A stretch of DNA of 64,000 nt. It comes from Morinoia aosen (Eukaryota > Arthropoda > Malacostraca > Amphipoda > Talitridae). A program made the translations under genes and the position numbers. Every line of letters begins with the position of its first letter. The stretch's first letter is position 1. The stretch is from positions 42,382,068-42,446,067 of the forward strand of contig CM059566.1 in assembly GCA_030386875.1 (NCBI GenBank), read 5' to 3'. This document shows positions 1,546-64,000 of the stretch, piece by piece. The notes under the pieces are model-generated. The model had not been told where the DNA came from. It saw only the letters and a program-made list of their open reading frames with translations, and searched no databases.

Positions 1546-1682
1546 ATGAAAGCAATGGCAGAGTCATTAGGTTTCACTCTAAAAAATGATGCAGCAGCAG
1601 AGGCAACAATTGCTCAGTGCAGTGAGCTTGAAAGAGTCAACCAACAAATCATCATGGCAAGATTGGAGCTCAAAAATTTAAG
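1546..1682 (+). CDS. TRMO: TRMO coding exon 1
   Basis: Residues 1-45 plus two bases of codon 46. It begins at the first ATG after an in-frame stop and ends at AG|GTAAGT (donor 1683). The encoded stretch is helical and probably coiled coil, and is not part of the catalytic domain. A 5' UTR exon may lie upstream but cannot be defined from sequence. Confidence 0.8.
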
Positions 1683-22770: not shown

Positions 22771-23569
22771 TATGAGTATACACGATGGGATGGATATTTT
22801 CGCTTCGCCTGATCAATATAGAATGCTTGAAAAATATTATTTTGAAATGCGCTGCATGAACTGACGAAATGGCTCATTGTCTGTAACAGTGAAATCTTTA
22901 ACAAGCATTGATATATTTTGACGTACCTTGTGACACAAATACGCTGAATGAAAACAAAAAAATTATTACGTTGAAGCTAATTTAATTATAATTACGCGTG
23001 TGAGACAAAACATAAGTCCTTAATACGACAAGGGTAATCTGGGACATATTTTGTTCACGCAAAATCTGAAATTTGGACACGTGTAATACATTCAACGCAA
23101 AGTTAATGATATCTTGTAGTATTTTCGAGCGACTCGGGGCATTTTTATATTTGCTTTACAACGGAAAGGTGTAAACGCGCGTGCACCACGTGCAAAGTAG
23201 AATTACACCCAAGTATCCAATCGTAATTCGTACACTCACTGTTCAAGGAACAAATATAAAAATTTGAAATGCAGCCAAGGCGGAAATTCAGTTCTCCGAG
23301 AGCGTATTAAGGATATGGACATCTGATGCGTTCGTGATACTAACATGAAATCCACGTAGAAGGAGCTGACTGATAGTAGATTGTAGAAAACGGGAAATCT
23401 ATATACAAGGTGTGTTCCCACACAAGATACCCTGCGCATTAGTAAAATCTAGGAAGAAAGATGAAGAAACGACAAAGCGATGGCAAAGAACACATGAAAA
23501 CTGAAAAAATCAAAGTGGGCACGATTGACAACATCCGCACAAAACACCCTATCCTTCCTATGGAGGTGC
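22771..23569. other. Intergenic, unique
   Basis: No gene recognised. About 23398-23520 resembles parts of other dispersed copies (near 24296 and 58310) beginning ATCTA and containing GTTCCCACAC, so it is probably an old repeat. Confidence 0.5.
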
Positions 23570-24368
23570 CAGTCCCCGTAGCATACGATAAACGGACCTA
23601 ACGAGCCACGTCCAATTGCCTATCCTATGCTTCCTGGAAATAGAAAACACACGTCTAATCTGAGCGTTCAATGGAGTCAAATTTAGCAACAAAAAACTGA
23701 ACTTCACTTGTGGTTTCGTTAGCTACAATTGGATCTAGTTAGAAGGAGCGAAAGAACTTTATATCATTGAACTTCGTTGAGAAGCCTAAATCTGCGTCAA
23801 ATAATCCTAACTTCACCTGATACGTTAATAAACGTGTCTAATCCCGAGGATGGACAAAAAAAAAGAAGCACGGCAAAAATCATGAAATATCTCGGGAAAC
23901 TTCCGATCTAATGTCATGGCGTTTGTCGGACACATTAAACTAACAGTAGACACATGTAAGTGTGATATTTTTACTGAAATTGATTCTCGTCACTGGTCAA
24001 CTTAGGCCGAGACACATCTCTGATGCAGAGCATAAGGTAATAGAATTATATCCTGTTAATTTTTTCGTACTTCCGAATTATAAGGAATTACAAAATTACA
24101 CGGAGAAGCATTGCAAAGTTTCGATTACGTGACAATGACCACATTCCTACACTTCAGAGTAGAATTATTACCTGAAATAAGCCAATAACTTCTAAAAAAA
24201 ATACAGAATAATACGCACATGAGATGTGTAAGTTTGAGCCTCCTAACCACAACAGTGTTCCAGAAAGAGGAAAACATCATTTAGTATGATGGAATCTACG
24301 CACATGGTGCGTTCCCACACGAGATCCCTGGCGTATAGAAAAAATAAGTTGGGAAGTTATCGAATGAA

Positions 24369-24691
24369 TTATCATTATTATTATTATTATTATATAAGAA
24401 AATTTTAGCCTCCCTTAACCACAACAAAGATGTTCCAAGAGAGGAAAAAGGAAGGCACCATTTAGTATGGAGTTGAGGGAACGTGGAATCTATGCACAAG
24501 GTGCACAGAAACAGTAAGCTAGGAAAGAAGTTCATGAAACAAGAAAAAGTTGAAGAAGAAAGTAGTAGGTGCTAAAAAACAGGACAGCAGTGAACCGAAA
24601 AAAGTTGGTCCGTAACAAAACAAAAACCTATTTTATTACAACAAAAAGGAAGCCTACCTAACCTTTAGCTCGGGCCCACACATTGTTAGTA
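24369..24691 (-). mobile_element. SINE-like family, 5'-truncated, with 10-bp target-site duplication
   Basis: Flanked by ATCGAATGAA at 24359-24368 and 24692-24701. It lacks the CCTCAGGGG head, so it is truncated at the 5' end, as expected of retroposons. Tail of ATT repeats at the left. Repeated at 33009-33331. Confidence 0.8.
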
Positions 24692-24732
24692 ATCGAATGA
24701 AACATGATGAAATATGAAGAATATAGTATGCA

Positions 24733-24902
24733 TTGAAACACAGGACTGAAGAGAACCCAAAAAACGACGGTCCGTAACAAAATAAAAAACATTTAATATT
24801 AACAAAAGAAAAACCTACCTACCCTTCAGCCTAGGCCCTTGCATTTTTCCCCCTGTGAGCGCTAATTCCCATAGATACAACAATTACATCCTACTCAGGG
24901 GA
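24733..24902 (-). mobile_element. SINE-like family, 5' fragment
   Basis: Head half only (GAGCGCTAATTCCCATAGAT visible); about 170 bp. Repeated at about 33373-33542. Confidence 0.65.
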
Positions 24903-24959
24903 AGTGTTAGGCCTATGCTGATGGTTCCACAAAATAATTCGTAACACATTCCTCTAAAG

Positions 24960-25255
24960 GGACTTAGGAGACTAACCTGTGAAGTAGAACAGGGTCTTCA
25001 GCTGGGCACGCTGTCAAGATGCACGATGTGCAGGCCGCTGTCAGATCTGTTCAGCTCGTTCGGTGAAGTGGACGCAGGAGCGCAGACCTCTAGGTATAAC
25101 AGGTGTAGAGGACCACAACGCTACTGCAGCTGCGCCGGTCAGGACATGGAACCACTGGTGCTTGTAAATAGAGCATTCCGAATGTTCAACGGCGAAGATG
25201 GGCATGAAAAATGAAGAACGAACCATGCCACATGACACCAATGATATAAACAATG
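24960..25255. other. GC-richer exon-like block, function unknown
   Basis: Clearly richer in G+C than its surroundings. The - strand has a CTGCAG acceptor-like site, an open stretch that includes ELNRSDSGLHIVHLDSVPS before a stop, and a GTTAGT donor-like site. No protein family recognised. A duplicate is at 33600-33895. It may be a captured exon or a retroposon piece. Confidence 0.3.
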
Positions 25256-25304
25256 AAGCAAATCGCTGCCGACACAGTCAAATTTAGAGAATGAAGAGAC
25301 GTCG

Positions 25305-25659
25305 CAGATTAGATTAGATTATTAGTTAGTTTAAGCCTCCCTACCCTCAACAAATGAGATCCAAAGAGAGGATCCCATTTAGTATGGAGTTAAGGGAACG
25401 TGGAATCTATGCAGAAAGGGCATAGAAACAGTAAGATGGGAAAGAAGTTCATGAAACAAGATCAAAGTTGATGAAGAAAGTAGTAGGTGCTGAAAAATAC
25501 AGGACAGCAGTGAACCGAAAAAAGACGGTCCGTAACAAAATAATAACCCATGTTATTTCAACAAAATGAAAGCCTACCTAACCTTCAGCTCGGGCTCTCA
25601 CATGGTTCCCCTGGGAGCGCTAATTCCCATAGATACAATAGTTGTATCCCCCTGAGGGG
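25305..25659 (-). mobile_element. SINE-like family, full copy with 10-bp target-site duplication
   Basis: AGAGACGTCG flanks it at 25295-25304 and 25660-25669. Complete head at right and AATCT-repeat tail at left. Repeated at 33945-34299. Confidence 0.88.
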
Positions 25660-25759
25660 AGAGACGTCGAAATTTAAAATTCTAGTTATAGTTTAAAATC
25701 CAAGGCTAACAAAGAACAGAATCAAATGATAAAAGATTTGGGTGAACTATTGCAGTAAC

Positions 25760-26113
25760 AGATTGAGATTATTTGTTAGTTTGAGCCTCCCTAACCGCTA
25801 CAAAAAAAAACGTATCGAAGAGAGGAAGGCACCATTTAGTATGGATATTATGGAATGCGGAATCTATGCCGAAGGGGCATGGGAACAGTAAGTTGGGAAA
25901 GAAGTTCATGAAATTAGATAAAAGTTGAAGAAGAAAGTCAGAAGTGCTGGAAAACTGACAGTAGAGAATCGAAAAAAGGTGGTCCTTGACATAACAAAAA
26001 AAATTTATTTCAACAAAAAGAAGGCCTACCCAATTCTCAGCTCGGGCCCTCACATTTTCCCCCTGGGGGGCGTTAATTCCCATAGATACAATTGCTGTAT
26101 CCCCCTGAGGGGG
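25760..26113 (-). mobile_element. SINE-like family, full copy with 13-bp target-site duplication
   Basis: CTATTGCAGTAAC flanks it at 25747-25759 and 26114-26126. Repeated at 34400-34752. Confidence 0.88.
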
Positions 26114-26210
26114 CTATTGCAGTAACGTTTTAAGATATATTTTTACCGGTATTTTTATAGAATCAATCATTTGACGAGCGCGAATTGAAAAGTATTTTAT
26201 ACATTACATT

Positions 26211-26551
26211 ATCAGTTATTTTAAGCCTTCCTATCTGCAACAAATGCAATCCGAAGAGGAAAAAGTAGGCACCATTTAGTATGGAGTAAAGGAAACTCGG
26301 AATCTATACAGAAAGGGCATAGAAACAGTAAGGTGAGAAAGAAGTTCATGAAACAAGATCAAAGTTGAAGAAGAAAGTAGAAGGTGCTGAAAAACAGGAC
26401 AACAGTGAACCGAAAAAAGATGGTTCTTAACATAAAGAAAACACTTTTTCAACAAAAATAAAGCCTTCCTAACTCTCAGCTCGGGCCCTTACACATTTTC
26501 CCCTGGGAGTGCTAATTTCCATAGATCCACTAGTTGAACCCACTGATGGGA
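26211..26551 (-). mobile_element. SINE-like family, older copy
   Basis: Recognisable along its whole length but the head is diverged (CACTGATGGG for CCCTGAGGGG); no clear flanking duplication. Repeated at 34850-35190. Confidence 0.75.
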
Positions 26552-26917
26552 CAAGCACACAAACTTTAAAGCAATTTTGTTCGAACTTTCAAAATCTGTT
26601 CCATTAACTAATATAATTGAATACAAGTAAAACGCGTCAAATGAAAACGTGAATTCTTTCGAAAACTGCATAAAAAAGAAAATACCTGAAAAGCTTTCGG
26701 GAAAAATTCACTGCTCTACTACTTGCACTCCTTCAATAAAGAGCGTTGAAAAGGGTAGAATGAAGTCAAAGTAAAAATATAGTCACAATGAAATAAAAGC
26801 GGGATGCTTCAATAATAAAGCAAATCTAAATATTCCTTCCAGAAAGTTGAGATAACTTTTCACAAATTAAAAACAAAGCATTCATAAGTGAATACTGTCT
26901 GGTTTTCCAAAGTATAA

Positions 26918-27402
26918 GTAGTAGTAGTAGTAATAACATCAATTTGCTAGCGCTTCAGTGCCTGCACTATGTCGCGCCGAAGGTCTCGCAATTCAGGTTG
27001 TCTCCACTTCTCAAATTTCGAGGTCTCACTGCCACAAACATCGCACCGCAAGTCAGCAACTATTAAACAAACAAAGACGCGACAGCCACGAGCGTGATCT
27101 GAACAACACTTGATTTCATTGGTGACAGTAGTAGTAGTAGCAGCGGCAGTAATAAAGGAGCTGCTAGTTCAATACCATACTCCTCATGCTTAGGGTTCAA
27201 TCAGTTCATCTAATCATCTTAAGGTACATGCACAGTTTGCACATTGAGCAACAGCCTAACCCCCTAATGGGGGTCTCAGCTCCCCACCCAATTATGGCCG
27301 GGCGCCTTACCCGCGCTGAAACCCCCAGGGGCATTGCGCAGCGCGCCCGGCCATTTTACAGTTCAGTGTTTACATCGCATTACCATGCGTAGAATCTTCA
27401 GG
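26918..27402 (-). other. Retrotransposon 3' region with two TAC-repeat tracts
   Basis: After the ORF2 stop comes a GC-rich patch (27260-27350), then TACTACTACTAC-type tracts at about 27126-27141 and 26918-26933 (on the - strand). Between them lies a - strand open stretch of about 58 codons ending in TAG, with CDVCGSETSKFEKW and ELRDLRRDIVQALKR. This may be part of the element or a transduced host segment. Confidence 0.5.
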
Positions 27403-30400
27403 CTAGATTTTTGAAGACAGATTACACGCTCCAATAAACGACTGCAGCGCTGTCACATTATAAGTTGACCGCTCAGCCTCCCCAAGTATTCCAGTCAAAA
27501 CATCCTGTGCACACCCGCGAAGGTGCGGAAAATGCAGATTCCTGGCAACAGCATTCAGGGGACACTCCGCGAGGAAGTGCTTTACAGTCAAAGGCACACG
27601 ACACCGTTCGCACTGCGGCTGTGGTAGCCGCTCCATCAGGTGCCCGTGTGTTAGCCGCGTATGGCCAATACGGAGGCGACAAAGCATCACCTCTAACCGG
27701 CGACCACGACAACTGGACGATATCCACTCACGTATAGTGGGTTTAATGCTTCTTAATTTATTGTTATCGTTAGCAGCGTTGTCCCATTCATGCTGCCATC
27801 GTTCTCTCACTGCCGCTTTGATCCGAGGGTAATAATCTCGGAAAGGAACCATCAGATTTAGAGTCTCCTCGTTTGCCTCTGCGGCCCGTTTAGCCTCCTG
27901 GTCAGCTCTTTCATTGCCAGACACTCCTACGTGGCCGGGCACCCAGCACAACGTCACAGATTTACGCTCACGTGTTAAATTTATTAAGTTCATGACGATC
28001 TCACCAACGAGCGGATGGGTGCTATTATGCTCTCGAGTGGCCTCCACCACACTTTTTGAATCCACAAAAATAGCAAAAGTATCATACACACAATGTTTAA
28101 TTAGTCGGAGGGCCTCCAGCACACCGTAAAGTTCCGCAGTGAAAATGGACGACTCTGGGAGCAATCTCTTGGCGCTCACCAGCTCCCCCGACACAGCGGC
28201 ACACCCTACAGCGTCTCCCACCTTTGAGCCGTCGGTATAGAACTTCATCGCACGGGCATGTTTTTCGGCAATATGGTCCAAAAAGATCCCCTTTAGTATG
28301 TGTGTAGGCATAGAATCCTTCTTAGGCATTTGACATCCCGGACAAAAACTCCCGATTGGGACACGCCACGTGGGAAAACTTTCCAAGAACACTGGTTGTA
28401 TTCTCATTGGCCTCAGCTGCATTGCAGCCACGACTGCCGAATAATCTTCCGATGAGGGCAGAAAGTAAGGGAAAGGCAGATGTCGGCCTAATGGCGCATG
28501 CACGCTGGTCCATGCAGGAGACAAGGGGACTTGTTCCAACCGCGCCAAGTACTGAAGGGTCAGCTGCACACGTCGGTGCCGTAAAGGAGGTTCACCGCTC
28601 TCCACACACAAGCTGCTGGAAGGGGACGACCTAAACGCGCCAGTGCAGATTCTGATAGCAGCATGATGCACAGGGTCCAGCTTCGAAAGTGAAGTCGCCT
28701 TAGCATATTGATACACTATGCAGCCGTAGTCTATTTTGCTTCTAATAAGAGTACGATATAGTCTCAGTAGGGTCATCCTGTCAGCCCCCCACGTCAGGCC
28801 GGCCAGGCTTTTTAGCAAGTTCAGCCTTCTGACGCAGTCAGCCTTGAGGGTGGCTAGGTAGGGCTTCCAAGAGAGCCTGTCATCAAGCGTCACCCCCAGA
28901 AACTTGGCGCTGTGTGAGAAACTCACTTGTCTTCCCTGCAGTGTGAGCTGTGGGGGATCACTACGGCCACGGCCCTGGAAGTAAAGTCCAACGGTTTTTT
29001 CGGGTGAAAAGTTGAAGCCATGTTCCTGAGCCCACTTATTAGCGTTATTGATGGCTAATTGCATTCTTCGCGTCAGAGCCGGAAGATGTGTTGATGAAGA
29101 GTATACCATAAAGTCGTCCACATATAAGGAGGCAACCGTTCCGGGAGGCAAGGTGGAGGTGATACCATTTAAGGCGACACTAAACAGTGTGCAGCTCATA
29201 ACACTGCCCTGCGGTAAACCTTCGCACTGCAACTGCGAGGAAGAGAGGGTGCCACCGACCTTAACGCGGAAAGTTCTTTCACCAAGAAATTCTCGAATAT
29301 ACAGGGCCATGTTACCACGGAGTCCATACTCATGTAGTGTCTTAAGTATTCCATATCTCCACACGGTGTCATAAGCTTTATGCATATCAAAGAAAAGACA
29401 CATGGTTCGGCGACGCTCGGCAAGGTTGGCCACCAGGTGGTTCTGTAAGCGGAGCAGAGCGTCTGTGGTCCCTCGAAGCTGCCGACTGCCAAATTGGACA
29501 GGGTTCAGTAGCTCCTCCGCCTCTAACCATCTGGTGAGTCGCGCATTGACCATTTTCTCCATCAATTTTCCAAGGCAACTAGTTAGGGCAATGGGTCGGT
29601 AGTTTTCAGGGTTGGATGGAGGTTTGTTGGGTTTTTCAAAAGCCATGATTAATGATGTGCGCCATTGTTGAGGATATGTATGCGTGATCCAGATTTTATT
29701 GAAAATATATAGCAAGAATTTAATGGCTGTAGTATGCATTTTCTTCAACATCCGGTAATGGATACCATCTGGTCCGGGAGCGGTATTTTTACATTTCTTC
29801 AGGGCGTTGTAAAATTCAACCATTGTAAGGGGGTCATTATAAGAGTAGGTGGAGTTTGTTGAGAAGTCCAACTGCTGCTGCTCCTGTTGCTGTTTCAGCA
29901 CTGTAAAGGCAGGAGAGTAGAGTCGTCCGCTACTGACACTATAAAAGCTTCGGGCCAGTGCTTCTGCCACGCACTCCGGGTCTGAGGTGAGAACGCCATT
30001 AACTTCTAGGCACGGCCGTCGATAACTGCATTTTCCCCTCATTTTATTTACTCGCTGCCATACCTTGGCCATTGGAGTATCGCTGTTGAGAGTGGAGACG
30101 TATTTCTGCCACGATACCTTACGGGCGACGTCTTTTATAATCTGAGCTCGCGCTCTAGCCTGATTGTATGCGATCTTGTCGGCTAGTTCTTTTGTTCTTT
30201 GGTATCGTCGCAATGCGCGTTTCCTCTCGATATTAGCGGCCTGGCAGTCATTGTTCCACCACGGGACGCGGTGCACTGGGCAACCGCCTTTAGACTTTGG
30301 AATAGCACTGTTGGCGGCTTCGTGCATTGCACTCACAAAGCTGTCAACCAATTCATCTACGCCATGAGCTTCATTTGGGTCCTCCATTGTCGTCAGCGCT

Positions 30401-31116
30401 CCAAAGTTTCTCCAGTTGGCCTTTTTGAAGTTAAACCTTGGTTCTATCAGCATCTGCTGGTTTTGGACCGAGTGCATTAAGACGGGGTAATGATCACTAC
30501 CGTGTGCATCGCTACTCACGGACCACTGAAATTCGGAAAGGATGTCGGGAGTGCAAAGACTCAGGTCGATGGCGGAGGAAGTCCCAGTCTGCACGTGAAA
30601 ATGCGTGGGGGCTCCGGTGTTCAGAAGACAAAAATCAGAAGCGACGATGAAGTCCTCCACAATTTCACCTCGACGATCGCTCCGGGCGTTTCCCCAAAGT
30701 ATGTGCTTGGCATTGACGTCTCCCAGGATCAAGGCCGGCCTCGCGAGTTGATTGCTTAAGAGGCTGAGATCTTGCAGGGCTAAGGGTTCGCCTGGTGGTA
30801 TGTAGATGTTACATACTGTTATCATACGTTTCCCAATGTAGACACGGAAAGCGATAGCCTGCAGCCTGGTGTTTACCGCAAATCTACTGTAGCCAACTTC
30901 TCTCCGCACAAGCACCGCCAGTCCCGTTCCAGGTACCGGGTTGGGCGCTGGGGAGAACAACTCTATATTGTAGTTGCTTGGAGGCCTTAGGGTAACGTTC
31001 CCCAGCAGTGTTTCCTGCAGACAAACACAACAGGGCTGGTGCCTCTCCAGAAGTGCTCTCAAGTCTCCGTAATTCCGTCTGTAGCCACGTATATTCCATT
31101 GTAAGAAGGTGTTCAT
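27403..31116 (-). CDS. Retrotransposon ORF2: endonuclease, reverse transcriptase, RNase H
   Basis: 1237 codons, uninterrupted. Residues 1-225 are an exonuclease-endonuclease-phosphatase nuclease: N8 in QWNIRG, E35 in LQE, D133/N135 in GDVNAKH, D184, and SDHYP at 207-211. RT spans about 450-760, with D577 in FFDMHKAYD, GLPQGS at 633-638 and the catalytic YVDD at 665-668. RNase H covers about 955-1075, with D962 (YTDGS), E995 (TAEL), D1019 (VDS) and D1072. A C-terminal C-X2-C-X7-H-X4-C motif is at 1169-1185. The protein would nick target DNA and copy the element's RNA in place. The ATG overlaps the ORF1 stop as ATGA. Every key residue I can check is present, so the copy looks recent. Confidence 0.95.
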   Translation of the reverse strand: MNTFLQWNIRGYRRNYGDLRALLERHQPCCVCLQETLLGNVTLRPPSNYNIELFSPAPNPVPGTGLAVLVRREVGYSRFAVNTRLQAIAFRVYIGKRMITVCNIYIPPGEPLALQDLSLLSNQLARPALILGDVNAKHILWGNARSDRRGEIVEDFIVASDFCLLNTGAPTHFHVQTGTSSAIDLSLCTPDILSEFQWSVSSDAHGSDHYPVLMHSVQNQQMLIEPRFNFKKANWRNFGALTTMEDPNEAHGVDELVDSFVSAMHEAANSAIPKSKGGCPVHRVPWWNNDCQAANIERKRALRRYQRTKELADKIAYNQARARAQIIKDVARKVSWQKYVSTLNSDTPMAKVWQRVNKMRGKCSYRRPCLEVNGVLTSDPECVAEALARSFYSVSSGRLYSPAFTVLKQQQEQQQLDFSTNSTYSYNDPLTMVEFYNALKKCKNTAPGPDGIHYRMLKKMHTTAIKFLLYIFNKIWITHTYPQQWRTSLIMAFEKPNKPPSNPENYRPIALTSCLGKLMEKMVNARLTRWLEAEELLNPVQFGSRQLRGTTDALLRLQNHLVANLAERRRTMCLFFDMHKAYDTVWRYGILKTLHEYGLRGNMALYIREFLGERTFRVKVGGTLSSSQLQCEGLPQGSVMSCTLFSVALNGITSTLPPGTVASLYVDDFMVYSSSTHLPALTRRMQLAINNANKWAQEHGFNFSPEKTVGLYFQGRGRSDPPQLTLQGRQVSFSHSAKFLGVTLDDRLSWKPYLATLKADCVRRLNLLKSLAGLTWGADRMTLLRLYRTLIRSKIDYGCIVYQYAKATSLSKLDPVHHAAIRICTGAFRSSPSSSLCVESGEPPLRHRRVQLTLQYLARLEQVPLSPAWTSVHAPLGRHLPFPYFLPSSEDYSAVVAAMQLRPMRIQPVFLESFPTWRVPIGSFCPGCQMPKKDSMPTHILKGIFLDHIAEKHARAMKFYTDGSKVGDAVGCAAVSGELVSAKRLLPESSIFTAELYGVLEALRLIKHCVYDTFAIFVDSKSVVEATREHNSTHPLVGEIVMNLINLTRERKSVTLCWVPGHVGVSGNERADQEAKRAAEANEETLNLMVPFRDYYPRIKAAVRERWQHEWDNAANDNNKLRSIKPTIREWISSSCRGRRLEVMLCRLRIGHTRLTHGHLMERLPQPQCERCRVPLTVKHFLAECPLNAVARNLHFPHLRGCAQDVLTGILGEAERSTYNVTALQSFIGACNLSSKI

Positions 31117-32165
31117 TTTTTGTCAGTTTTAGATGTTATATACGTAGGACCCTTTTCAATTCCCTCACCTGCGGCACACGTCAGTCCGGGTGACGTAGAG
31201 ACAGGAGGTCTGTCAATCCACGGGTGGACAGGTACCGCCGGACGAGGCCCGGTGGGGAGGTTTTTTGGGGGTGGGAAGATTTTTAACAGGTGTGCTGCTA
31301 CTTCTTTTGGGACGGTCGTAACCCGCTCTAAAGAACGAATGCGTTGGGTAACAATGTTACGCTGCTTTTCACTGTCAATGTGGGAGCTATTCTTTTCTTT
31401 GGTCGGCAGCGACAAGTCACGCCCGGATCCCCTTTCCTGCTTGTCTCCACGGCTGGGCCCTCGCACGGCAGATCGAGATTCCCTCACAGTGCTGCGTTCG
31501 TGCTCTGCCCTTCCACCGGTTGTAGCCACTGAATCCCTGACAGGATCCTTCTCTTGACTCGGGATAGCTTGGCCTTGATTGTCTGCTGGGGTGTCTTCCA
31601 TAAATCTCAGTGTTTTCGGAGTTTTTGTTTGTTTTACATCTTGTGGGGGCGATATGTCGCTTTTAGTTCTTTTGCGGGAGGTAATAATTGAGGGGATTGA
31701 TTGAAACTGTTCGTTAGATGAATCTTTCTGGTGAGTGGTGGAAGCTGGATCTTTTGAAATTTCCTTATTAGAGGGTCCTGATTGAGCCAAAGGTTGGGTC
31801 ACGCGCACTGGAGGCTTTTGGGCCAGGCTCTGGCTTCTTAGAGCAGAGGCATCCACAAGGCTCAAAGGCTCTGGCTCCTGCTCATCTCGCCGTGCTGCCA
31901 CACTCCGCGAGTGCGGTTGCTCAGGTTGCCGGAAGATTGGCTGAGAGTTCAGTCTCCGGTGTTGGGCGACGTCAGCGTAAGAAGTGCGGGGAGAAACATA
32001 CCTGGATGTCACCGTCCTCTTGGCTTCTCCATAGCTAATGCTCTCTCTCACCTGAGTTGCGAGGATTTCTGCTTCAATCTCATAGTGGGAACATGATGTG
32101 GAGCTGGCTGGATGCGGACCCTCACAGTTGGCGCATCTCGCAGGTCGGACACAAGGCGACTCATG
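31113..32165 (-). pseudogene. Retrotransposon ORF1 (gag-like), 5'-truncated
   Basis: Reading left from 32165 the frame is open to the TGA at 31113 (350 codons). It starts in a zinc knuckle, CANCEGPHPASSTSC (C-X2-C-X3-H-X6-C), preceded by CVRPARC as in arthropod gag proteins. An in-frame TAA lies at 32166-32168 and the upstream gag sequence is missing. The rest is a polar, low-complexity tail rich in Ser, Arg, Gln and Pro. Its normal job is RNA binding and RNP formation. Confidence 0.8.
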
Positions 32166-32208
32166 TTACTCCATTGAGCAATTTGCGCACGTGCCTCGCT
32201 GGGCGCGG

Positions 32209-35200
32209 CAGTCCCCGTAGCATACGATAAACGGACCTAACGAGCCACGTCCAATTGCCTATCCTATGCTTCCTGGAAATAGAAAACACACGTCTAATCT
32301 GAGCGTTCAATGGAGTCAAATTTAGCAACAAAAAACTGAACTTCACTTGTGGTTTCGTTAGCTACAATTGGATCTAGTTAGAAGGAGCGAAAGAACTTTA
32401 TATCATTGAACTTCGTTGAGAAGCCTAAATCTGCGTCAAATAATCCTAACTTCACCTGATACGTTAATAAACGTGTCTAATCCCGAGGATGGACAAAAAA
32501 AAAAGCAGCACGGCAAAAATCATGAAATATCTCGGGAAACTTCCGATCTAATGTCATGGCGTTTGTCGGACACATTAAACTAACAGTAGACACATGTAAG
32601 TGTGATATTTTTACTGAAATTGATTCTCGTCACTGGTCAACTTAGGCCGAGACACATCTCTGATGCAGAGCATAAGGTAATAGAATTATATCCTGTTAAT
32701 TTTTTCGTACTTCCGAATTATAAGGAATTACAAAATTACACGGAGAAGCATTGCAAAGTTTCGATTACGTGACAATGACCACATTCCTACACTTCAGAGT
32801 AGAATTATTACCTGAAATAAGCCAATAACTTCTAAAAAAAATACAGAATAATACGCACATGAGATGTGTAAGTTTGAGCCTCCTAACCACAACAGTGTTC
32901 CAGAAAGAGGAAAACATCATTTAGTATGATGGAATCTACGCACATGGTGCGTTCCCACACGAGATCCCTGGCGTATAGAAAAAATAAGTTGGGAAGTTAT
33001 CGAATGAATTATCATTATTATTATTATTATTATATAAGAAAATTTTAGCCTCCCTTAACCACAACAAAGATGTTCCAAGAGAGGAAAAAGGAAGGCACCA
33101 TTTAGTATGGAGTTGAGGGAACGTGGAATCTATGCACAAGGTGCACAGAAACAGTAAGCTAGGAAAGAAGTTCATGAAACAAGAAAAAGTTGAAGAAGAA
33201 AGTAGTAGGTGCTAAAAAACAGGACAGCAGTGAACCGAAAAAAGATGGTCCGTAACAAAACAAAAACCTATTTTATTACAACAAAAAGGAAGCCTACCTA
33301 ACCTTTAGCTCGGGCCCACACATTGTTAGTAATCGAATGAAACATGATGAAATATGAAGAATATAGTATGCATTGAAACACAGGACTGAAGAGAACCCAA
33401 AAAACGACGGTCCGTAACAAAATAAAAAACATTTAATATTAACAAAAGAAAAACCTACCTACCCTTCAGCCTAGGCCCTTGCATTTTTCCCCCTGTGAGC
33501 GCTAATTCCCATAGATACAACAATTACATCCTACTCAGGGGAAGTGTTAGGCCTATGCTGATGGTTCCACAAAATAATTCGTAACACATTCCTCTAAAGG
33601 GACTTAGGAGACTAACCTGTGAAGTAGAACAGGGTCTTCAGCTGGGCACGCTGTCAAGATGCACGATGTGCAGGCCGCTGTCAGATCTGTTCAGCTCGTT
33701 CGGTGAAGTGGACGCAGGAGCGCAGACCTCTAGGTATAACAGGTGTAGAGGACCACAACGCTACTGCAGCTGCGCCGGTCAGGACATGGAATCACTGGTG
33801 CTTGTAAATAGAGCATTCCGAATGTTCAACGGCGAAGATGGGCATGAAAAATGAAGAACGAACCATGCCACATGACACCAATGATATAAACAATGAAGCA
33901 AATCGCTGCCGACACAGTCAAATTTAGAGAATGAAGAGACGTCGCAGATTAGATTAGATTATTAGTTAGTTTAAGCCTCCCTACCCTCAACAAATGAGAT
34001 CCAAAGAGAGGATCCCATTTAGTATGGAGTTAAGGGAACGTGGAATCTATGCAGAAAGGGCATAGAAACAGTAAGATGGGAAAGAAGTTCATGAAACAAG
34101 ATCAAAGTTGATGAAGAAAGTAGTAGGTGCTGAAAAATACAGGACAGCAGTGAACCGAAAAAAGACGGTCCGTAACAAAATAATAACCCATGTTATTTCA
34201 ACAAAATGAAAGCCTACCTAACCTTCAGCTCGGGCTCTCACATGGTTCCCCTGGGAGCGCTAATTCCCATAGATACAATAGTTGTATCCCCCTGAGGGGA
34301 GAGACGTCGAAATTTAAAATTCTAGTTATAGTTTAAAATCCAAGGCTAACAAAGAACAGAATCAAATGATAAAAGATTTGGGTGAACTATTGCAGTAACA
34401 GATTGAGATTATTTGTTAGTTTGAGCCTCCCTAACCGCTACAAAAAAAACGTATCGAAGAGAGGAAGGCACCATTTAGTATGGATATTATGGAATGCGGA
34501 ATCTATGCAGAAGGGGCATGGGAACAGTAAGTTGGGAAAGAAGTTCATGAAATAAGATAAAAGTTGAAGAAGAAAGTCAGAAGTGCTGGAAAACTGACAG
34601 TAGAGAATCGAAAAAAGGTGGTCCTTGACATAACAAAAAAAATTTATTTCAACAAAAAGAAGGCCTACCCAATTCTCAGCTCGGGCCCTCACATTTTCCC
34701 CCTGGGGGGCGTTAATTCCCATAGATACAATTGCTGTATCCCCCTGAGGGGGCTATTGCAGTAACGTTTTAAGATATATTTTTACCGGTATTTTTATAGA
34801 ATCAATCATTTGACGAGCGCGAATTGAAAAGTATTTTATACATTACATTATCAGTTATTTTAAGCCTTCCTATCTGCAACAAATGCAATCCGAAGAGGAA
34901 AAAGTAGGCACCATTTAGTATGGAGTAAAGGAAACTCGGAATCTATACAGAAAGGGCATAGAAACAGTAAGGTGAGAAAGAAGTTCATGAAACAAGATCA
35001 AAGTTGAAGAAGAAAGTAGAAGGTGCTGAAAAACAGGACAACAGTGAACCGAAAAAAGATGGTTCTTAACATAAAGAAAACACTTTTTCAACAAAAATAA
35101 AGCCTTCCTAACTCTCAGCTCGGGCCCTTACACATTTCCCCCTGGGAGTGCTAATTTCCATAGATCCACTAGTTGAACCCACTGATGGGACAAGCACACA

Positions 35201-35556
35201 AACTTTAAAGCAATTTTGTTCGAACTTTCAAAATCTGTTCCATTAACTAATATAATTGAATACAAGTAAAACGCGTCAAATGAAAACGTGAATTCTTTCG
35301 AAAACTGCATAAAAAAGAAAATACCTGAAAAGCTTTCGGGAAAAATTCACTGCTCTACTACTTGCACTCCTTCAATAAAGAGCGTTGAAAAGGGTAGAAT
35401 GAAGTCAAAGTAAAAATATAGTCACAATGAAATAAAAGCGGGATGCTTCAATAATAAAGCAAATCTAAATATTCCTTCCAGAAAGTTGAGATAACTTTTC
35501 ACAAATTAAAAACAAAGCATTCATAAGTGAATACTGTCTGGTTTTCCAAAGTATAA
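32209..35556. repeat. 3348-bp direct repeat, right copy
   Basis: Second copy of 23570-26917, beginning exactly at the truncated 5' end of the retrotransposon. It carries the same SINE-like nest (33009-33331, about 33373-33542, 33945-34299, 34400-34752, 34850-35190) and exon-like block (33600-33895). Sequence to its right (from 35557) is unique, while that to the left of the left copy (before 23570) continues a dispersed repeat, so each outer border looks ancestral. Confidence 0.95.
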
Positions 35557-37455
35557 ATAACAATCCATACAAACCAACCGTCCGCAAAGGGAACTTAATG
35601 AACAGTCTACATACAACACACATCAATAGAACAAAAACCTAAATAAAAGTAGCTAAATGGCTGGTATTTACTTTTAGTCTTTCACGACTTACTTCCCACG
35701 AATCAGGAAATAGAAAGAAACCCCTTGTCAAGATAACTGGATTTGGCTACCTCGCGTCTCAAAGAAGCCATGTGACTCTCCCCTAAACTTATCCTAATCC
35801 ATTAGGCTGCCACGAGATGGTGAAAACAACCAAGCTTATTTACGAAACAAAAAAAGAAATCAGATTTCCTGAAGTACTGCGCAGCATTGGGGAGAGAAGC
35901 ACTTGTGACGTCCTGATACTAGAATTTAAGGGATGCAATACCGTACCGGTAAACTTCTTATGATGTAGAAAAAACTTATTCAAAACTTCTATAGCACGGA
36001 AGAAGGTACAATTAACATGTATAAACGGAGCTCAAAATACTAAGGTAGACGAACAACAAAAATGGCTTCTCGTGAGGTACTTTGCCGAAGAATTTGCCAT
36101 ACGCTGGTTCAAACAATTTCTTGCAGCCTGCCGTGAAACCCAGCCCTAACTACGGAAGAATTCCATAACACAATGAAAAGTTGGTCACGAACATCGTCAG
36201 CTGATATATTATGGCAACAGCTGTACAACATTTTGAGAGATTGAATTAAATTATACAAAATTTAAACACAATAGCCAGTCAATGAATTCGTTTACAATAG
36301 AACTAACCATTTTGCCACAACAAATAAATTAAAGGGCAAAAACTTGTATGGTAAGGAAGACAAGTAACCGAGAGACCGCCAGCATGAAACACTCGACACC
36401 CTAAGAGCTCAGAGAAATCCAAGATACTGCGTCACCCACTAAGTTTTTCAGCAATGTTCATTTTGCAGTGGATTGCGATGGACACCTCATAGAAGAGCTC
36501 TACTCTTTCCAAATCACACACATACAGTTCACATCAAGAGTAGGCTGAAGACAACATCTGAATACGGAGCTTAGATCTCTTCAAATGATAATACATTGGT
36601 AACCTTTTCTGTAAAATGATTTGCCAGCTTTTTTAAATACTATCGAGTATTTTCGATTTAATTGTAGTTCAAATTGAAAGCTATCAAGAACTACCGATAT
36701 CTAGTACGTGCATACTTTAAAACAGGATTGATAAATTAAGCGATACTGATCATAAACAGAAAGCCTAATCAATTACGTGATAACGTTACATTTTCCTAAC
36801 AGTAATTACAAATTACTTGTTTTCACACAGAAAAAATGCAGGCAAACATTGCGAATATTCCAGAAGGAATAATTTATTCTAAAATGAGTCTTTGCACGTA
36901 AGTCGAATATTAGTTGTGTCCATTGCCACATTCATTCAGGTAACTGTAAAATTAACATTGAAATTATTATTTTCTGAATGCATAGACAGCATGCCTCCCG
37001 CGTCCCTCATCATAAAGAATAAGATTGTAGTTTACAGCGACAACAACCTGACGACACATACTCAACTCTCAGACTATTAAGGGTACAGAGAAGTAGCTGA
37101 TACTGTGAGAAGACAAACACTTCAGATTTTTCAACATCTACTAACACGCTTAAATAAACGCAGTCATGAACAAGCACAGAACCAGAAGCTCTATAACATA
37201 AAGGAGTTTAAGCTAAAAATAAAAGTCCCGTATCGGATAGCTCACTACATTCAGTAGCAATTGTCACAAATAAAATACGCAACAAAAAAATACTATAAAA
37301 TGAACCATTCTGTATTTTAACTTAAGAGCTAAACGATGCTAACGCCTACAACAACCCTCATTTGAAATGGCAGAAACATCACTGCTTTAATATCTGCGAG
37401 GATCGTAATTGCTGTCGGACGAGAAAATAAAGAGTTATGGACTAGGATCAAGAAC
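35557..37455. other. Intergenic, Strip 3' flank
   Basis: AT-rich. No gene, repeat family or array recognised apart from possible Strip poly(A) signals near its right end. Confidence 0.55.
37386..37391 (-). terminator. Strip: Possible poly(A) signal for Strip
   Basis: ATTAAA on the - strand, about 65 bases past the stop. A canonical AATAAA appears farther down at 36873-36878. Assignment is tentative. Confidence 0.25.
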
Positions 37456-38058
37456 TTATACTTTATCCGCCTGCTTGCCATCGGTTTTCACCTTAGATGA
37501 GCCTTTTCCTCCACCATCCTCGGCAGAACCACCATCATCATCAATGGGTATGTCAACAATTGCAGCAGCAGTACCGTTTAAACCAGTGCTCGTTTTCTTG
37601 ATCATAGTTTGCATCCTCTCTTTCTTGTCATACTCGTCTTCATCGGGGGACTCGACACGTCCATGCGCAGGTCTCGATTCGTCGTGATGCCTGTAGAATT
37701 GACCACTCAGCTGCTGAATTAAGGGTGTGTAGTCACCGCTTGCACCTACCAAAACCAATTTTTTTCCACACTCACAGCCTTCTGATTTCGCAAGTTTCTG
37801 AGCTTCAGATGATGCTTCAGTTGATTGCCCGCTTTTGGCGGTCACCCTGCACTTCTCACAAGAGGATTTTTTGGACGAGGCCGATGTGTCGACAGCGTTT
37901 GTGTTGGTGGAGAGCAACAGGTCCCAATGTATGGTCGTGTGCAGCACCTCTCGTTGCAGCCACACTTCGTAGGACCGCGTGAACTCCTCCGTCAGTTCAA
38001 CATGGCGACCCAACACTGAAGTGATGCAGTTGTCTACAGGCTCGAATTCGCTGTCACC
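37456..38058 (-). CDS. Strip: Strip coding exon 18 and stop
   Basis: Residues 889-1088 plus TAA, acceptor TTACAG. The first 50 codons (EPVDNCITSVLG, WLQREVLH, HWDLLL) match the end of FAM40 proteins. The following 150 codons form a tail with Cys pairs (CEKC, CECGKK), an acidic patch and a Gly/Lys-rich end. The tail is open and looks coding, but I know of no equivalent in vertebrate STRIP1. Confidence 0.92.
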   Translation of the reverse strand, partial: GDSEFEPVDNCITSVLGRHVELTEEFTRSYEVWLQREVLHTTIHWDLLLSTNTNAVDTSASSKKSSCEKCRVTAKSGQSTEASSEAQKLAKSEGCECGKKLVLVGASGDYTPLIQQLSGQFYRHHDESRPAHGRVESPDEDEYDKKERMQTMIKKTSTGLNGTAAAIVDIPIDDDGGSAEDGGGKGSSKVKTDGKQADKV

Positions 38059-41000
38059 CTGTAAAAATGAAACCATAGATGCGAAGGTGAAACGTAAATC
38101 TGGGAAAGCACAATGATTTCGTACACTTATTGAGTATGAATGTATATGATAGGATTCACTTACTCTAATTCACGTCATGACAACCACGCTATATTGAATT
38201 TGTGCTAGTAACACAGTAAAACCAAGCTCATTTCGGCAAGGAAAAGAACATATACTGTATTAATTTAAAGAATATATCAGTGCAGAATTAAGACCAAACA
38301 AGCTCCCAAAATAAAAAGGATACATCGGAAAATCAGTATCAGCTATTGACAAAATGTTAGCAGTGAAAGTTTTGAATCCAAAAACAACATGCACCCAGAT
38401 CAGTCTACAAGTAGTAGTAGTTGCTAGAGTGGGGTTTCGGTAAGCGCTTTAGGTTCAAGGCTTACAGATCGATCTAATGCTATTATGGAATAAAATGATG
38501 AAAGCATTGAAACAACCCAACGTGAAACGATGCTAGGTGACAAAATGTCCCAGGACTTACAAAAGCAAGCAAAATTAAAGTCACCATCAAAAGTGGGAGA
38601 CTTAGCAGGAATTTAAGAAGCGCAACAACACCAACAAGAAAATAGAGAACATAGACCAAAAGAGTAAGAAAGACACACAAAACCCTACAGTTTGGGCGTG
38701 ATGGTAGCGTCGTGTGTTGAAGCGGTCGACGGCAGCCCTTAGAGAACACTCTTCCGTCTGGAAGTCCCAAGGTCGCGCGTCTGGGTCGTTCCCGTACGCC
38801 CAGTCGTCGTTCAGGCGGTGCCGCACCTCAATAAAAATTCAATTATTAATTATATACTTCTTCATTTGATACGTAGAACTTTAAACTGCATTTCAAATGC
38901 AAACAAATTTTTGATGTCAAGTCTGCAAAAAAGAGTTTGAAGTTAGATTTATAGTTTCATTACACAAGATAAGACACTTGACTCTGACACGTACTATGGC
39001 AGCAGACTTGAAATACTAAAAAGCAGAAATATTCGAAAGGAAAACCTCAGCCTATTTTCTAAAAACAGCATGGTTAAAACGTAATTTTTACATTAATCTC
39101 ACAACACCTTCTACATCCACTCGCTCCAGCTGAAGAAATTCCACACGTATTACGTCCACTATTATATAAGCTTTTCAAAATATGAAGTTAGAAATATTAT
39201 GACCCAGCTACAGTTTATTAGTTTATTAGTTAGTTTAAGCCTCCCTATCCTCAACAATGAGATGTAAAGAGAGGAAGGAAGAAGGCACCATTTAGTATGG
39301 AGTTAAGGGAACGTGGAATCTATGCAGAAAGGGCACAGAAACAGAAAGCTAAGAAAGAAGTTCATGAAACAAGAAAAAGTTGAAGAAGAAAGTAGTAGGC
39401 GGTGAAAAACAGGACAGCAGTGAACCGAAAAAAAGATGGTCCGTAACACAACAAAACCTATTCTATTTTAACAAAAGAAAGCCTACCTAACCTTTAGCTC
39501 GGGCCCTCACATTGTCCCCCTGGGAGCGCTAGTTCCCATAGATACAATAGTTGTATCCCCCTGAGGGGTGACCCAGCTACATCTACCTTGCTCAATCATA
39601 CTACGCAGAGAACACGATAGACGGAATAACAAAATTTTCAGAAGCCGATTACAGGTGCTTCAATGTAAAGAATAACGCGAACACAAAAACTTACAAAATA
39701 ATCAATGAACCATTGAACACATTGCATGCAATTAATTAACGAGATGGGTTGCTTCATATTGATGGGAAAATTATCTTTATCAATATTGGTTTCAAATTAA
39801 TAACTTAGCATGGGTAGGGTTAGGCTTTTTTCCACCAGTAATATACCTGTATGACATCCCCATTAAAAACGTTGCAGACAACGTCGTGAATTAAAATAGC
39901 AAAACCATTAACATTTTGACTACAGCAGGTGAAACTGAAATTTAACATTCAACTCATATTCGAAGTCAATTGTTGAATGCAATGTTGAAAATAGGAAACA
40001 TTGCCTGGATAATGCCTTAATTAGGTTTTGATTGAATCAAGTGTTCATGAAAATAGAGTTTTTGACTACTGGTCGATCAGCAGCATTATGAAAATTCCCT
40101 CTGTGTACCAACGGTGGCTTACGTCGCAGTCAATGTTAATTAAAAACGGACACCATTCAGTACACATAAGAGCCTCACCATTTGGTAGATGGCGGACAAA
40201 GTCTTCATGTTGCTCTTCCGCCACTGCCGTCCCAAGTACTTGGTCTGCATCTTGAGCAGCTTCAGCACGTACAGTTGCATCATCGCGTGCTTCACCTGCA
40301 CATGCGCACAGCTTTCACAACGCTTACTTAGTTTCATTTACTCCTACGTTCGGTGAAAGGTTATTCAACAAATGAGCAAATAAATGGTGCCTAATTTGGC
40401 CACCAATCCATATCGATTGAAAAACAAAAAATGAACAACGATTTTACATCTCGAATTTTTTGGTCCCTACACGGAGGAAACAACCCAATATGGGTTAGGC
40501 CCTAACACAATCACACTATTTGAGCGTTAACATACAGAGCTATCCCATTGTTTGGTACAATTATCAGAAGAATGAGAAGAGAAAATGATTTTTTCCTCCG
40601 CGGAATTCTTTAAAAATAGAAAATTCTGCTATTTTACGTAATGCAGCCGTTCCACACATACGATTCGTGCATTTCAACCTTCATTTTGACAGTAGTCCAA
40701 AATTACAAGTCATAGGCTCAGTAAAAAATTGAAAGAAAAGTAATCACTTGCTCAGAATGTAGAAGTAGCAGGGCAATTAAAAAATTAAGGTATTGACAGC
40801 ATAGACTGGTGAAAACAAAAGGCAGCGTACGTTACCTGATCTTAAAGTAAAATTCTTGCACAACTTCGGGATGAAGGAGAATTGGAGCACATTGTGTTGA
40901 AAATAAACATGAGAAGACTGTCATTAGGATCATGTAGAATGTTGAATATTCAACCAACAAAATGTTAATGAATACTGGAAGGTGAGCAACAAGAAATTCA

Positions 41001-44000
41001 CTACTCTCAATACAGAAGCCAAGAAAGACTGTTCTAAAACTCAGGTACACGCTGTTCAAAATTTATACCACCAGACTTTACGAGTACAATGCATACTCTT
41101 CAGATGCGCCAGACCCAGAAACCCACAGTTACAAAGCATAAGAGCACGTGCCTCTGCCAAAACAAAAACTAACAACACACTATGTAGCAGTGCTACGAGA
41201 ATAAAATAAACACTACGTTATCGATGTACATAAACAACATGAAATGAGTTATAACTGCAAGTGGGTATACAAACAGCGCCCCCTCGGGAAGGTGTGGATT
41301 GGCTGGAATACTTACTAAGCGTCAACTCAACTAGCCTACCAGGACAGCGGCGGTTTCACCCACCATGAGCGTGCGCTTGAGTATAGGGGCGCTCTTGAAG
41401 ACGACCAGCATCATGATGCGCGAGTGCTTCCACTTGCACAGCTTGTTGAGGACGCGCAACAGGTTGATGCAGGAGAACATGTTCCGCCAGCAGCACGCAG
41501 CACTCGTCTCCGCAAGATTGCTGCTCCCACCCCCAGCTGCCCCTCCTCCATTGCCGTTATTATTGTTATTGTTGTTGTTGTTATTGTTGGAGGAGGATGA
41601 AGGTGTGGAGGGAGGGTTGGACGAGAGGGTGCTGCTGTCACTGCTTAGCAAGTTGCTGTTGCTGGCGCCGTCGAAGCTTTTACCTTCTGTTGATGTGGTT
41701 ATCAAATATATTTGGACACTGTACATATAATGAATGCAAATGATAGCCCAGAAGACAGAAAGGCTGACTTGACGTTGGTCAAACACACCACTCTATGGTT
41801 TCCAAGGTGGCCTATGTAGCTAAGATTTTCACACCCGCGGTACAAGTTCATTTTGTCTACACTAAAAACACAAAACATTACACCTGATATTTACACTTTG
41901 CAAACTCAACACACGCATTAAGAACGTAAAAATCCCTATCGGATGTTGCATTGCGAGGGAAAATTTTCACTACAAACCAATTCCCTCTCAACTGCAAGAA
42001 TGAAGAAGAAAAAACCTCAAGGAGTCACGTTTCCTTGAGTCAAGTTTATCTAAGCATTACGACACAGAGTATCTTAACCCCCACGTATCCACGGGCGTTG
42101 GTGGGGGTAGGCGCACCCAAACTGACCGTGACTCTCCAGAGCGCCGCCAGCAGCAGCACCGATGCTGGCCAGCAGGGCGTCATTGCTGAGATCAGCACCA
42201 TCACCGATCACGCAGGATGGGAAATCCAGAAGCGCGATGCTGGGAAGAGCAGCCAAGCGTCAGTGAACACGTTCCCCGCGTATTGGGTCATATGTGTACC
42301 ATTGCTCTTTCATGTAACCAGTATAAATGAACGATATTTCGTCTGTTTTGTGATCTTTTTAAAGAATAACTGATCATACAAGGTGAAATGTTAATATTTC
42401 GAAAGAAGGATAGAAATGTATTCGAGCAGTAAAGTCGATTTCCCATTTCTGCTACTTACAACCTAACAAACCAACCGTTAACAACCGCGGTGAACGTGTT
42501 AAAAGAGAGCTCACTTGCGACCACCATGAGCAAGCGTTTGTCAAAAGAAATTTTATCAACACCTTTATCAGCAGGCAGTATATTGAACACCTTTTACATG
42601 CTTGTAGTTTAATTATTAAGGTTTCTCAGAGATTTTACTTTTTTAATTGCTCACATTAAATTGATTGGTGAACCGGCAACATTAGCCAGATAACAAAGCT
42701 ACTGTCTAGCAGGAAAGAATAGTTAACAGAAATGCGTCTTCAAGGTAGGAAGGCTGCAATGGAACATAAGCTAAGATTGAAGTCAAGACTCACGTATTCT
42801 TGGTGCGTACGTATGCCATGATATTCTGGTTGAAGAACTTGAGGATGAGAGGGATACAGTTGGCAAAGACGAGATGCTGGGACATGAACTCGAACTGGTA
42901 CACGTGATTGAGCTTGAGGTGCTTGAGCAGCAGCAACAGCGTTGCTGACACAGCCTTCACCAGGATCTCTTTGTGGCGGTTCACGTCCAGGCCTAGCTTC
43001 ATGCTCTGCACCACTGTGAGCCTGCGATTGTTGGGCCAAAGTTACTATTTGTAGTAGTTTGTTAATTGCTTAATTATTATACAGGACATAAAGCCGCGAT
43101 AACCAAGAAAGTCTCGTCACATTAAAATACAAAGACGACAGCCTAAGTCAGAGGATATTGAGCATTAAATCAAAATATGACGACAGGAACGAGCTGAATG
43201 GCCCATTCTCTAGTTTCTAGCAAAGTCCTATGTCGTCAGATATGGATGAGTAGAAGTCCCTGAGTAGAAGAAGAGGAGAAACAACAGCCACACTCACAAC
43301 CGTGGTTACTTTCCCATTGTAGTTGTTTCCTGTTCAATTATCACGCAGTTGTTACAACCACTACAATCTGTTGAGCTGTTCACATCCAGACGTACCTACA
43401 AGAACTTTCGTCAGTTCGAGGTCATTTCCAACACTCGCTAGTGATCTCTGGTGTTACGTGCCGCAACCACTCCAAATTCTCAGGTCGCTGCAATGACTCG
43501 TCGCATGCCTTACAGCTCATTATAGCTCAAAAGCAACAGAGGTACTTTTGCATTCTCAGCATATGTGAAGAAGTGAAAATCATTCCTACCAATGGCGTAG
43601 GTTCAGTGAAAGCTTTTATCACCAATTCATGTCCATAAGCAATTAGCTTATTATCAATTAGCTTATTATTAGCTTCGATCAAAACAAAGGCAACTTCGCG
43701 ATAGCAGCGGTTTACTTAAATATTACCAACACAATCATAATGGCAGCACCTCTCCATATAAATGGCATTACTAGTCTGCCAACGTACATATTATCATCAT
43801 TGAATTTTAAAACAAAATAAAATTGATTTATTACCGAAAATGAGACAAAAATAAAACCACCTGTCATCAGTTTAAATCGACCATCTCCAGCTAAAATTTA
43901 TACGTAAAATACTTCAATGTTCAATATTTAAATTTTAAATGATTAAAAGTACGAGATGACTCCTCACCTCCTACTCTCGATATCAGAACATGCATAATAA

Positions 44001-62589: not shown

Positions 62590-62614
62590 AGAGAAGCTCA
62601 GGGTTTCATCACTA

Positions 62615-63390
62615 ATAAGAACAGATTAATGTCTATTTCATAAAAACTGAAAGATAAATTAAAATAATATGCTGTTTTCTTCGCTAAGTGTTCAACTAAT
62701 GATAAAGACCTCACATGAATGTATTGCACCTGAAACAAATGCAATGGTTGTTGACGATAAAATTACTCAATTTTACACCAACCTTGAGGCAAAGATAAAT
62801 AAAGATGCAAATATATGTACATATTATTACAGTTCATTGCAAGTTTTTAACATAATCTTTTAAGAAAAACATTAGAAAAAATAGCAGGAAAAATGAAAAT
62901 CAGAAGTAGCCATACCATTTGCCACATCTGAACACTTAAGCAATATATACATATATATATATACAATATTTTGGTCAGATTAATCATAATTTTTAATGAA
63001 AATTTATAGAACATTGATTTTCAAATAAAAGAGAGTTCTCAGTTAGAAGAGAGTTATGGGACACAGGAGTTAATAACACAGAACAAAAATTCCAACCAGT
63101 TCTTGAACTCGAGTATGAGAAGCATAAAGATCTTCTGTCACAATTTTTAATTTCCTTTAATATGCAAACAGCAGCATGGCTACCATCAGTTTTTACCCAT
63201 GTACCAAGCTTGTCTTGGAAAAAAACTCAGGACTCATTCTGTATCATTCAATGCAACTTTAACCATGAGTGTGACATCTGGTGAGCCAGTTTGTCAAAAG
63301 TAACGGTCAAAATGGAGTTTAAGCCTTTCACGGAATTTAAAAATTCTGTCCCGAAGAATCACTAAAAGAACACATTTAAAAACGTTTCAC
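62615..63390 (-). other. Strip 5' flank
   Basis: AT-rich sequence upstream of the first coding exon. A 5' UTR exon and promoter should lie here or beyond the window, but I see no decisive motif. A short TA repeat lies at about 62945-62962. Confidence 0.5.
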
Positions 63391-63394
63391 ATGA

Positions 63395-64000
63395 ACGACA
63401 TTCTGCTTCCTGATGCGTTATTTTTGAGTTATTCAACTTTGAAATTTTGGTGTTCCATAGCAGTCCCAGTCAGTTGACTGCTTGAGCTGGAGCTGTTGGA
63501 GTACGCTTGGGTACTTTGTAACTTATTTGCTGACCCTGCAGAGCGTGAATCCACTTCTAGGATGTTTTAATTAGTTAATAACACAATAAAAGTTATCACC
63601 CAAAAATATTACGTCATAAAAATATTATATTAAAACTACGATATTCACTCCTACGGTTTTGCTAATCTTCTATGGTGGCAGCCATATTGGAACTGATGTC
63701 AACAGCATATCTATTCAAGTCTTCACTATTCAAGTCTTGCTAATATTTTTGGGTGATAACCTATATTGTGTTATTAACTAAGACATCCTAGAAGTGGGTT
63801 CAGGCTCCGCGGGATGGGCTAATAATAAATTACGCCATATATTGCAAAAACAATAACTTTTTGACCGCTCCACGCACTTGCAGCATTGTTGGAACATGCT
63901 CTGCTTTGCACGGGAAAGCCATTTCATGAGCGCCGTTACTATAACCTCAAAGTTAAATAACTCAAAAATAAGGCATCAGCGAGCAGAAAGTCATTCCTGT
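63395..64000. mobile_element. Long foldback element at the right edge (incomplete)
   Basis: The left arm (63399-63610) pairs with the right arm (63743 to at least 63995): TATTTTTGAGTTATTCAACT pairs with AGTTAAATAACTCAAAAATA, and CCACTTCTAGGATG with CATCCTAGAAGTGG. The loop is about 130 bp. No coding capacity. The right end may lie beyond the window. Confidence 0.75.

Follow-up and report, generated by a model that had tools for sequence, protein, structure and literature searches.

The window analysed here is a 64,000-bp stretch of the Morinoia aosen genome (C11:42382068-42446067; the assembly comprises 1.99 Gb in 29 contigs), and it contains a long interspersed nuclear element (LINE) standing between two direct copies of a 3,348-bp target sequence, which is denoted block A (Table 1). 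The two copies of block A align from end to end with 99.76% identity, the 8 differences being 6 substitutions and two 1-bp differences in A-runs, and a 3.3-kb repeat at this identity is far beyond chance. The LINE (5,291 bp, minus strand) is flush with a block copy at each end. Its five TAC units, which read as GTA repeats on the plus strand, abut the left copy at 26917/26918, and its truncated 5′-end abuts the right copy at 32208/32209; homology of the two copies ends at both inner borders, and the sequences beyond are unrelated. This is the geometry of a large target-site duplication, i.e. a direct repeat of the target flush with both LINE ends. The original prediction for this DNA, which had described two 3,348-bp direct repeats with about eight differences bracketing a non-long terminal repeat (non-LTR) retrotransposon exactly, with these junctions at the TAC tail and at the truncated 5′-end, was borne out in all these points. 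One refinement is needed: the first three bases of the right copy (CAG) may equally belong to the LINE, so that the duplication measures 3,345-3,348 bp.

Table 1. Coordinates of the duplicated block, the LINE and surrounding features (window positions; other coordinates as marked)
Feature	Position	Strand	Remarks
Left copy of duplicated target block A	23570..26917	+	3,348 bp; 8 differences to 32209-35556
Right copy of duplicated target block A	32209..35556	+	3,348 bp; end-to-end alignment with left copy
LINE (E), 5′-truncated, 5,291 bp	26918..32208	-	without first 1,246 bp of full-length relatives
ORF2 (second open reading frame), 1,237 aa, open	27403..31116	-	APE-type endonuclease, reverse transcriptase, RNase H
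ORF1 remnant, 5′-truncated	31113..32207	-	in-frame stop at ~32166-32168; zinc-knuckle region spotted by eye
3′ tail, five TAC units	26918..26932	-	tail kind matches relatives
Microhomology CAG (CTG on LINE strand)	32209..32211	.	3 bp common to target and LINE as continued in relatives
Dispersed repeat spanning outer left border 23569/23570	23550..23641	.	C7 match 23550-23636; C6 match 23557-23641
Last 58 bp of block A and outer right flank (empty site)	35499..39212	.	contiguous in right arm, 98.3%, C11:42481191-42477458
Left arm of large palindrome	35499..64000	.	centre ~2.8 kb past window's right end; outer part, down to ~17.6 kb, less alike
Dispersed ~300-360-bp repeat in block A	24368-24688, 25303-25660, 25760-26112, 26200-26551		also in right block
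Dispersed ~300-360-bp repeat elsewhere in window	6074-6435, 15646-16013, 39186-39571, 59844-60194, 61969-62267		

ORF2 of the LINE is intact, as had been claimed: the 1,237-residue frame is open and has Pfam matches to Exo_endo_phos_2 (1.7e-20), RVT_1 (3.7e-35) and RNase_H (8.9e-14), and its best matches in the PDB are human L1 ORF2p and then R2 proteins and TRAS1. These domains are those of a non-LTR retrotransposon with an APE endonuclease and RNase H, and the 3′ TAC tail and the short, variable target-site duplications found across the family likewise identify a LINE. Domain order and residues would place it in an I/Nimb-like group. In addition to what had been described before, ORF1 is truncated and carries one in-frame stop near its 5′-end. 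Peptide patterns used to look for relatives of ORF2 in viral contigs gave no match, and a scan of the window against Rfam at gathering scores gave no RNA family.

The behaviour of the family was determined from its other copies. With the first 1,109 bp of the LINE as query, the best 40 of 112 first-look candidates were scored, and all 40 matches, including the window copy, span the entire query at 99-100% identity. Among the other copies fetched, 22 of 29 reach within a few bases of one 5′-end, which lies 1,246 bp further 5′ and gives a full length of ~6.54 kb; hence the window LINE is 5′-truncated inside ORF1. A full-length 5′-end only 474 bp upstream proved wrong, as the reference copy that had suggested it (L016) is itself truncated. 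Target duplications were read in 31 other copies, namely 29 of the 39 other places of the 5′ search and 2 copies chosen by 3′-end likeness, a sample that is biased in that the 29 were chosen by likeness to the 5′ part of the window copy. Four copies were unreadable at one end and were dropped (L021, L026, L033 and L041), and 26 of the remaining 27 have target duplications of 8-16 bp, these lengths being longest matches that may include a few bases of tail or element. The reading was straightforward in 22 of these 26; the other four (L024, L027, L034 and L044) are set in tandemly repeated or tail-like sequence, and for these the automatic reading gave 131, 39, 66 and 20 bp, respectively, and reading by eye 12-14 bp. 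The 27th copy, L029, has no target duplication within 8 kb.

The TAC tail is common to the readable copies, 6 of the 26 are 5′-truncated like the window copy (L016, L027, L030, L038, L075 and L076), and 17 of 18 straightforward duplications in the first-read batch begin with T or CT, as the target of the window copy begins with T. With a family norm of 8-16 bp, in line with the earlier statement that duplications of such elements usually stay under about 20 bp, the window copy is an outlier among the sampled copies. Long flanking direct repeats, for which the original prediction had proposed to search other copies, were found in none of the 27, and long duplications as a habit of the family are thus unsupported. 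Two copies deserve mention for their own structure. L017 (C8:2883017 region) has an inverted 5′ part, as in twin priming, and a 13-bp target duplication; L041 (C4:17666078 region) is broken at ~2,460 of the compared part and is followed directly by the 5′-end of another copy, an arrangement that reads as a nested or tandem insertion.

Judged by their sequence, the inner junctions look like normal products of this family, with a TAC tail, a target starting with T, a 5′ truncation and a 3-bp microhomology. The sequence at the 5′ joint is ...AAAACCTG in full-length relatives and, ahead of the joint, ...GGGGACTG in the target, with CTG in common. No ordinary short duplication was found at the LINE borders. 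A later ordinary insertion into an existing tandem duplication should leave one, and its absence speaks against the possibility that the tandem duplication came first and that an unrelated LINE then happened to land on its very junction. This order of events has in its favour that tandem duplications are frequent and that the LINE family seems to have been active of late, but the insertion must hit one position in ~6,700 and dispense with the target-site duplication that 26 of 27 readable relatives have. The divergence of the block copies does not exceed the age of the LINE either, and the duplication is therefore not clearly the older of the two. We regard this order of events as very improbable and as the least probable of the alternatives.

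The state before insertion is preserved in the same genome. A large palindrome takes up 17625 to 64000 of the window and continues to ~108.5 kb in window coordinates (C11 ~42399.7-42490.5 kb), with arms that are 98.3-99.6% alike over ~31 kb each and less so further out. The arms match at 99.6% close to the centre and at 98.3% in the flank to the right of the block-LINE-block structure; across block A and its left flank BLAST gives 91-92%, and 200-bp bins mostly give 89-98%, with four at 76-86%. In the right arm (~C11:42477-42485 kb) the left flank, one block A and the right flank are present without the LINE, and the sequence runs uninterrupted across the point of the LINE 3′ insertion. An empty site with one copy of the repeat and no element, as had been predicted, is therefore found in the opposite palindrome arm. 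Since the block copies are 99.76% alike and each is several per cent away from the right arm, the duplication event is younger than the arm split. That block A was carried in by the LINE is ruled out, because the right arm has block A without LINE.

Compared with the left arm, the right arm is without one ~320-bp dispersed repeat inside block A and without ~126-130 bp at the outer left border; opposite 26412 it has ~220 bp that are not present in the left arm. Due to this border gap, the outer left border was tested instead by dispersed repeats crossing 23569/23570. In a query across this border (best 40 of 189 candidates scored), unbroken matches run over it at C7:5370705-5370789 and C6:16282418-16282504, whereas at these two places and at four more the match to the right copy begins only at its base 1 or 2. 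Together with the empty site, these repeats indicate that the outer borders of the duplicated structure are ancestral and that both inner borders are new, as had been proposed for each side, the right by the empty site and the left by the C7 and C6 matches.

The palindrome also bears on an assembly error, which the original prediction had named as the main rival: the assembly may show a single true block twice, or may have compressed a longer array in which blocks and LINEs alternate. Repeats and palindromes are typically prone to misassembly, and the evidence at hand is assembly sequence. However, 8 places distinguish the block copies, the contig has the size of a chromosome (67 Mb), and the palindrome arms differ by 0.4% to ~9% in BLAST blocks, so they are not one sequence folded back; a false join must moreover create a 5′-truncated LINE end with microhomology to the block start. 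An assembly error is thus given a low probability and ranks below unequal crossing-over, which had not been listed before. Somewhat lower still we place the possibility that the LINE was first inserted in the ordinary way and that another repair route, for instance template switching or copying from another place, then moved block A beside it. Error-prone repair does join LINE 5′-ends, and reports from flies include complex Jockey insertions accompanied by flanking deletions as well as two hobo insertions that carry duplications (PMC11226609). Against this, a second event must end exactly at the LINE 5′-end, and the right arm, as the only other long match to block A (best 40 of 15,209 candidates), is too diverged to be the donor.

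The ages of the duplication and of the LINE can be compared by their changes. At 3,299 well-sampled sites compared with 26-28 relatives, 7 changes are private to the LINE, a count that includes changes already present in the source element, and the 2 x 3,346 sites of the block copies hold 6 substitutions; a one-sided binomial test does not reject equal age (P ~0.10). When the right arm is used as outgroup, 4 of the 6 substitutions fall on the left copy and 1 on the right, and 1 is undecided. The LINE also carries six minority variants at well-sampled sites (253, 277, 802, 2604, 4999 and 5182), each of which is present in 2-5 of 28-29 copies. L017 shares all six, L075 five, L016 four, L018 and L076 two each and L035 one, where L076 covers the 3′ part only and the LINE stretch ~2609-4592 was compared with one or two copies. 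Both LINE ends thus appear to come from one sublineage, with no visible mosaic between 253 and 5182, and this disfavours a recombinant of two insertions, although a crossover outside 253-5182, or two parents of one sublineage, would escape detection.

This result concerns the main rival, unequal crossing-over between two LINE copies of the same orientation, one at each border of block A and on different chromosomes. Such an exchange yields exactly block-LINE-block with the LINE at the new junction only. Moreover, the family is young (all 40 scored matches whole at 99-100%), so polymorphic nearby copies are possible, and the 6 substitutions between the block copies could be old allelic differences. 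In the Drosophila Bar duplication, unequal exchange is reported to have occurred between transposons, and there as here the element stands at the tandem-duplication junction only; Bar-type exchange, however, requires two parental insertions, and the window LINE shows no mosaic sign. The exchange would need two young same-strand insertions within 3.3 kb, neither of them left at an outer border, and two insertions would mostly give a mosaic unless they were of the same sublineage or the crossover lay outside, whereas variants of one sublineage run along 253-5182. We estimate that the missing mosaic shifts the odds by about five to one, and consider unequal crossing-over unlikely, while it retains more weight than any other alternative.

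We therefore favour, with moderate confidence, the explanation that one retrotransposition event made both the insertion and the 3.3-kb duplication. The original prediction had suggested a possible single recent event, by target-primed reverse transcription with a distant second-strand break or by a retrotransposition-mediated tandem duplication. The geometry of a giant target-site duplication, the empty site and the family norm strongly suggest a single event and stop short of proof; in the comparison of ages that it had proposed, equal age is not rejected (6 versus 7 changes). In the proposed mechanism, the LINE endonuclease would nick the plus strand after 26917, and the (TAC)n tail of the RNA would be reverse-transcribed from the 3′-end at 26917. 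Reverse transcription would halt 1,246 bp short of the 5′-end of the RNA, and the end of the complementary DNA (cDNA) would pair through CTG with a 3′-end 3.3 kb distant, at 23570, and be joined there instead of at the usual break ~12 bp away. Fill-in from this distant end would then copy the 3,348-bp block again on the far side of the LINE. The simplest place for the distant 3′-end would be the sister chromatid, or a gap left by replication or repair; a single-chromatid route needs two nicks and strand separation over 3.3 kb, and hence a break or gap on the sister chromatid seems more likely.

Several points weigh against a single retrotransposition event. The data come from a single assembly, and crossing-over between two insertions yields an identical final structure. 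No other sampled family copy has a long duplication, and the event in the window would thus be a rare accident. The 3-bp microhomology is weak evidence, with a chance occurrence estimated at ~1 in 20, and owing to the ~126-130 bp missing in the right arm at the outer left border the empty site is base-exact on the right side only.

Other features of the block and of the palindrome were observed alongside. Block A holds four copies of a dispersed repeat of ~300-360 bp, which is SINE-like (resembling a short interspersed nuclear element) or a short transposon; the copy at 24368-24688 is the one absent from the right arm, which implies an insertion or deletion between the arms. The palindrome centre lies near C11:42448861 (by eye), has almost no spacer and carries AAGATGGCGGC, which resembles a YY1 site. 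An open frame at 37456-38076 (minus strand) matches the C-terminal end of striatin-interacting protein 1 (7k36_I, E 1.8e-9), and because it sits in the palindrome arm the genome probably has two STRIP-like copies head to head. Also within the arm, a 12-bp tandem repeat (AAAAGAGACAGT) has ~82 units at 49493-50469. A diverged tandem array of 3.5 kb with a 31-bp unit occupies 18888-22385, with related repeats in the right arm at ~104.4-107.2 kb in window coordinates. A weak match, short of the Pfam cut-off (E 0.0004), links the first 20 residues of an open frame at 14284-15405 (plus strand) to the end of the TrmO N-terminal domain. TTAGG repeats are abundant in the genome, with 6,769 forward and 8,723 reverse matches of a 30-mer and 0 for the backward control, and by themselves point to an arthropod.

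Long target duplications have been obtained with engineered human L1 in cultured cells. They reached 5.3 kb in cells deficient in nucleotide excision repair and 1.6 kb in complemented cells (PMC5223499); in a second study, in which the medians were 12-13 bp, the longest measured 29.9 kb in CSA-deficient cells and 3.45 kb after complementation (PMC5717806). As in the window, the LINE in both studies is flanked by direct target repeats, and a distant second nick or break was proposed there; those insertions, however, are human reporters in cultured cells, whereas here we see a natural insertion of another kind of LINE with its empty site in the same genome. In a tumour, a tandem duplication of 22.6 Mb with L1 was modelled as cDNA joined to a 3′ overhang on the sister chromatid (PMC7058536). 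It likewise has a single LINE at the junction of a direct tandem duplication, but is somatic and 22.6 Mb in size, whereas the 3.3-kb duplication stands in a reference genome and is thus presumably inherited. The 5′ truncation and the microhomology at the 5′ joint also resemble the annealing-type joining of 5′-truncated LINEs (PMC4245944), although human L1 in DT40 cells gave almost only duplications of 10-20 bp, compared with 3.3 kb here. According to a 2016 eLife appendix, insertions outside HeLa cells show, to its authors' knowledge, canonical short sizes only, and we recognised no natural long target duplication by a LINE in the open-licence literature searched. The kind of event is already known from human L1 in cultured cells and tumours, a precedent that favours the single-event explanation, and a natural, presumably inherited 3.3-kb case in a non-L1 LINE that has its empty site in the same genome appears to be rare.

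The present case, natural and probably of germline origin, spans kilobases and has kept its empty site in the opposite arm, which makes the cutting and joining of the second strand by LINEs datable and testable. It also suggests that a single step suffices for an active LINE to seed a tandem duplication, and genome scans that accept short duplications only would miss such cases. We hold it somewhat more probable than not that in an arthropod germline a LINE insertion can finish at a break kilobases away, one retrotransposition event then leaving a tandem duplication of kilobase length whose two copies the LINE separates. If true, segmental duplications could arise naturally by this route outside mammals, and not just in cell culture or in tumours.

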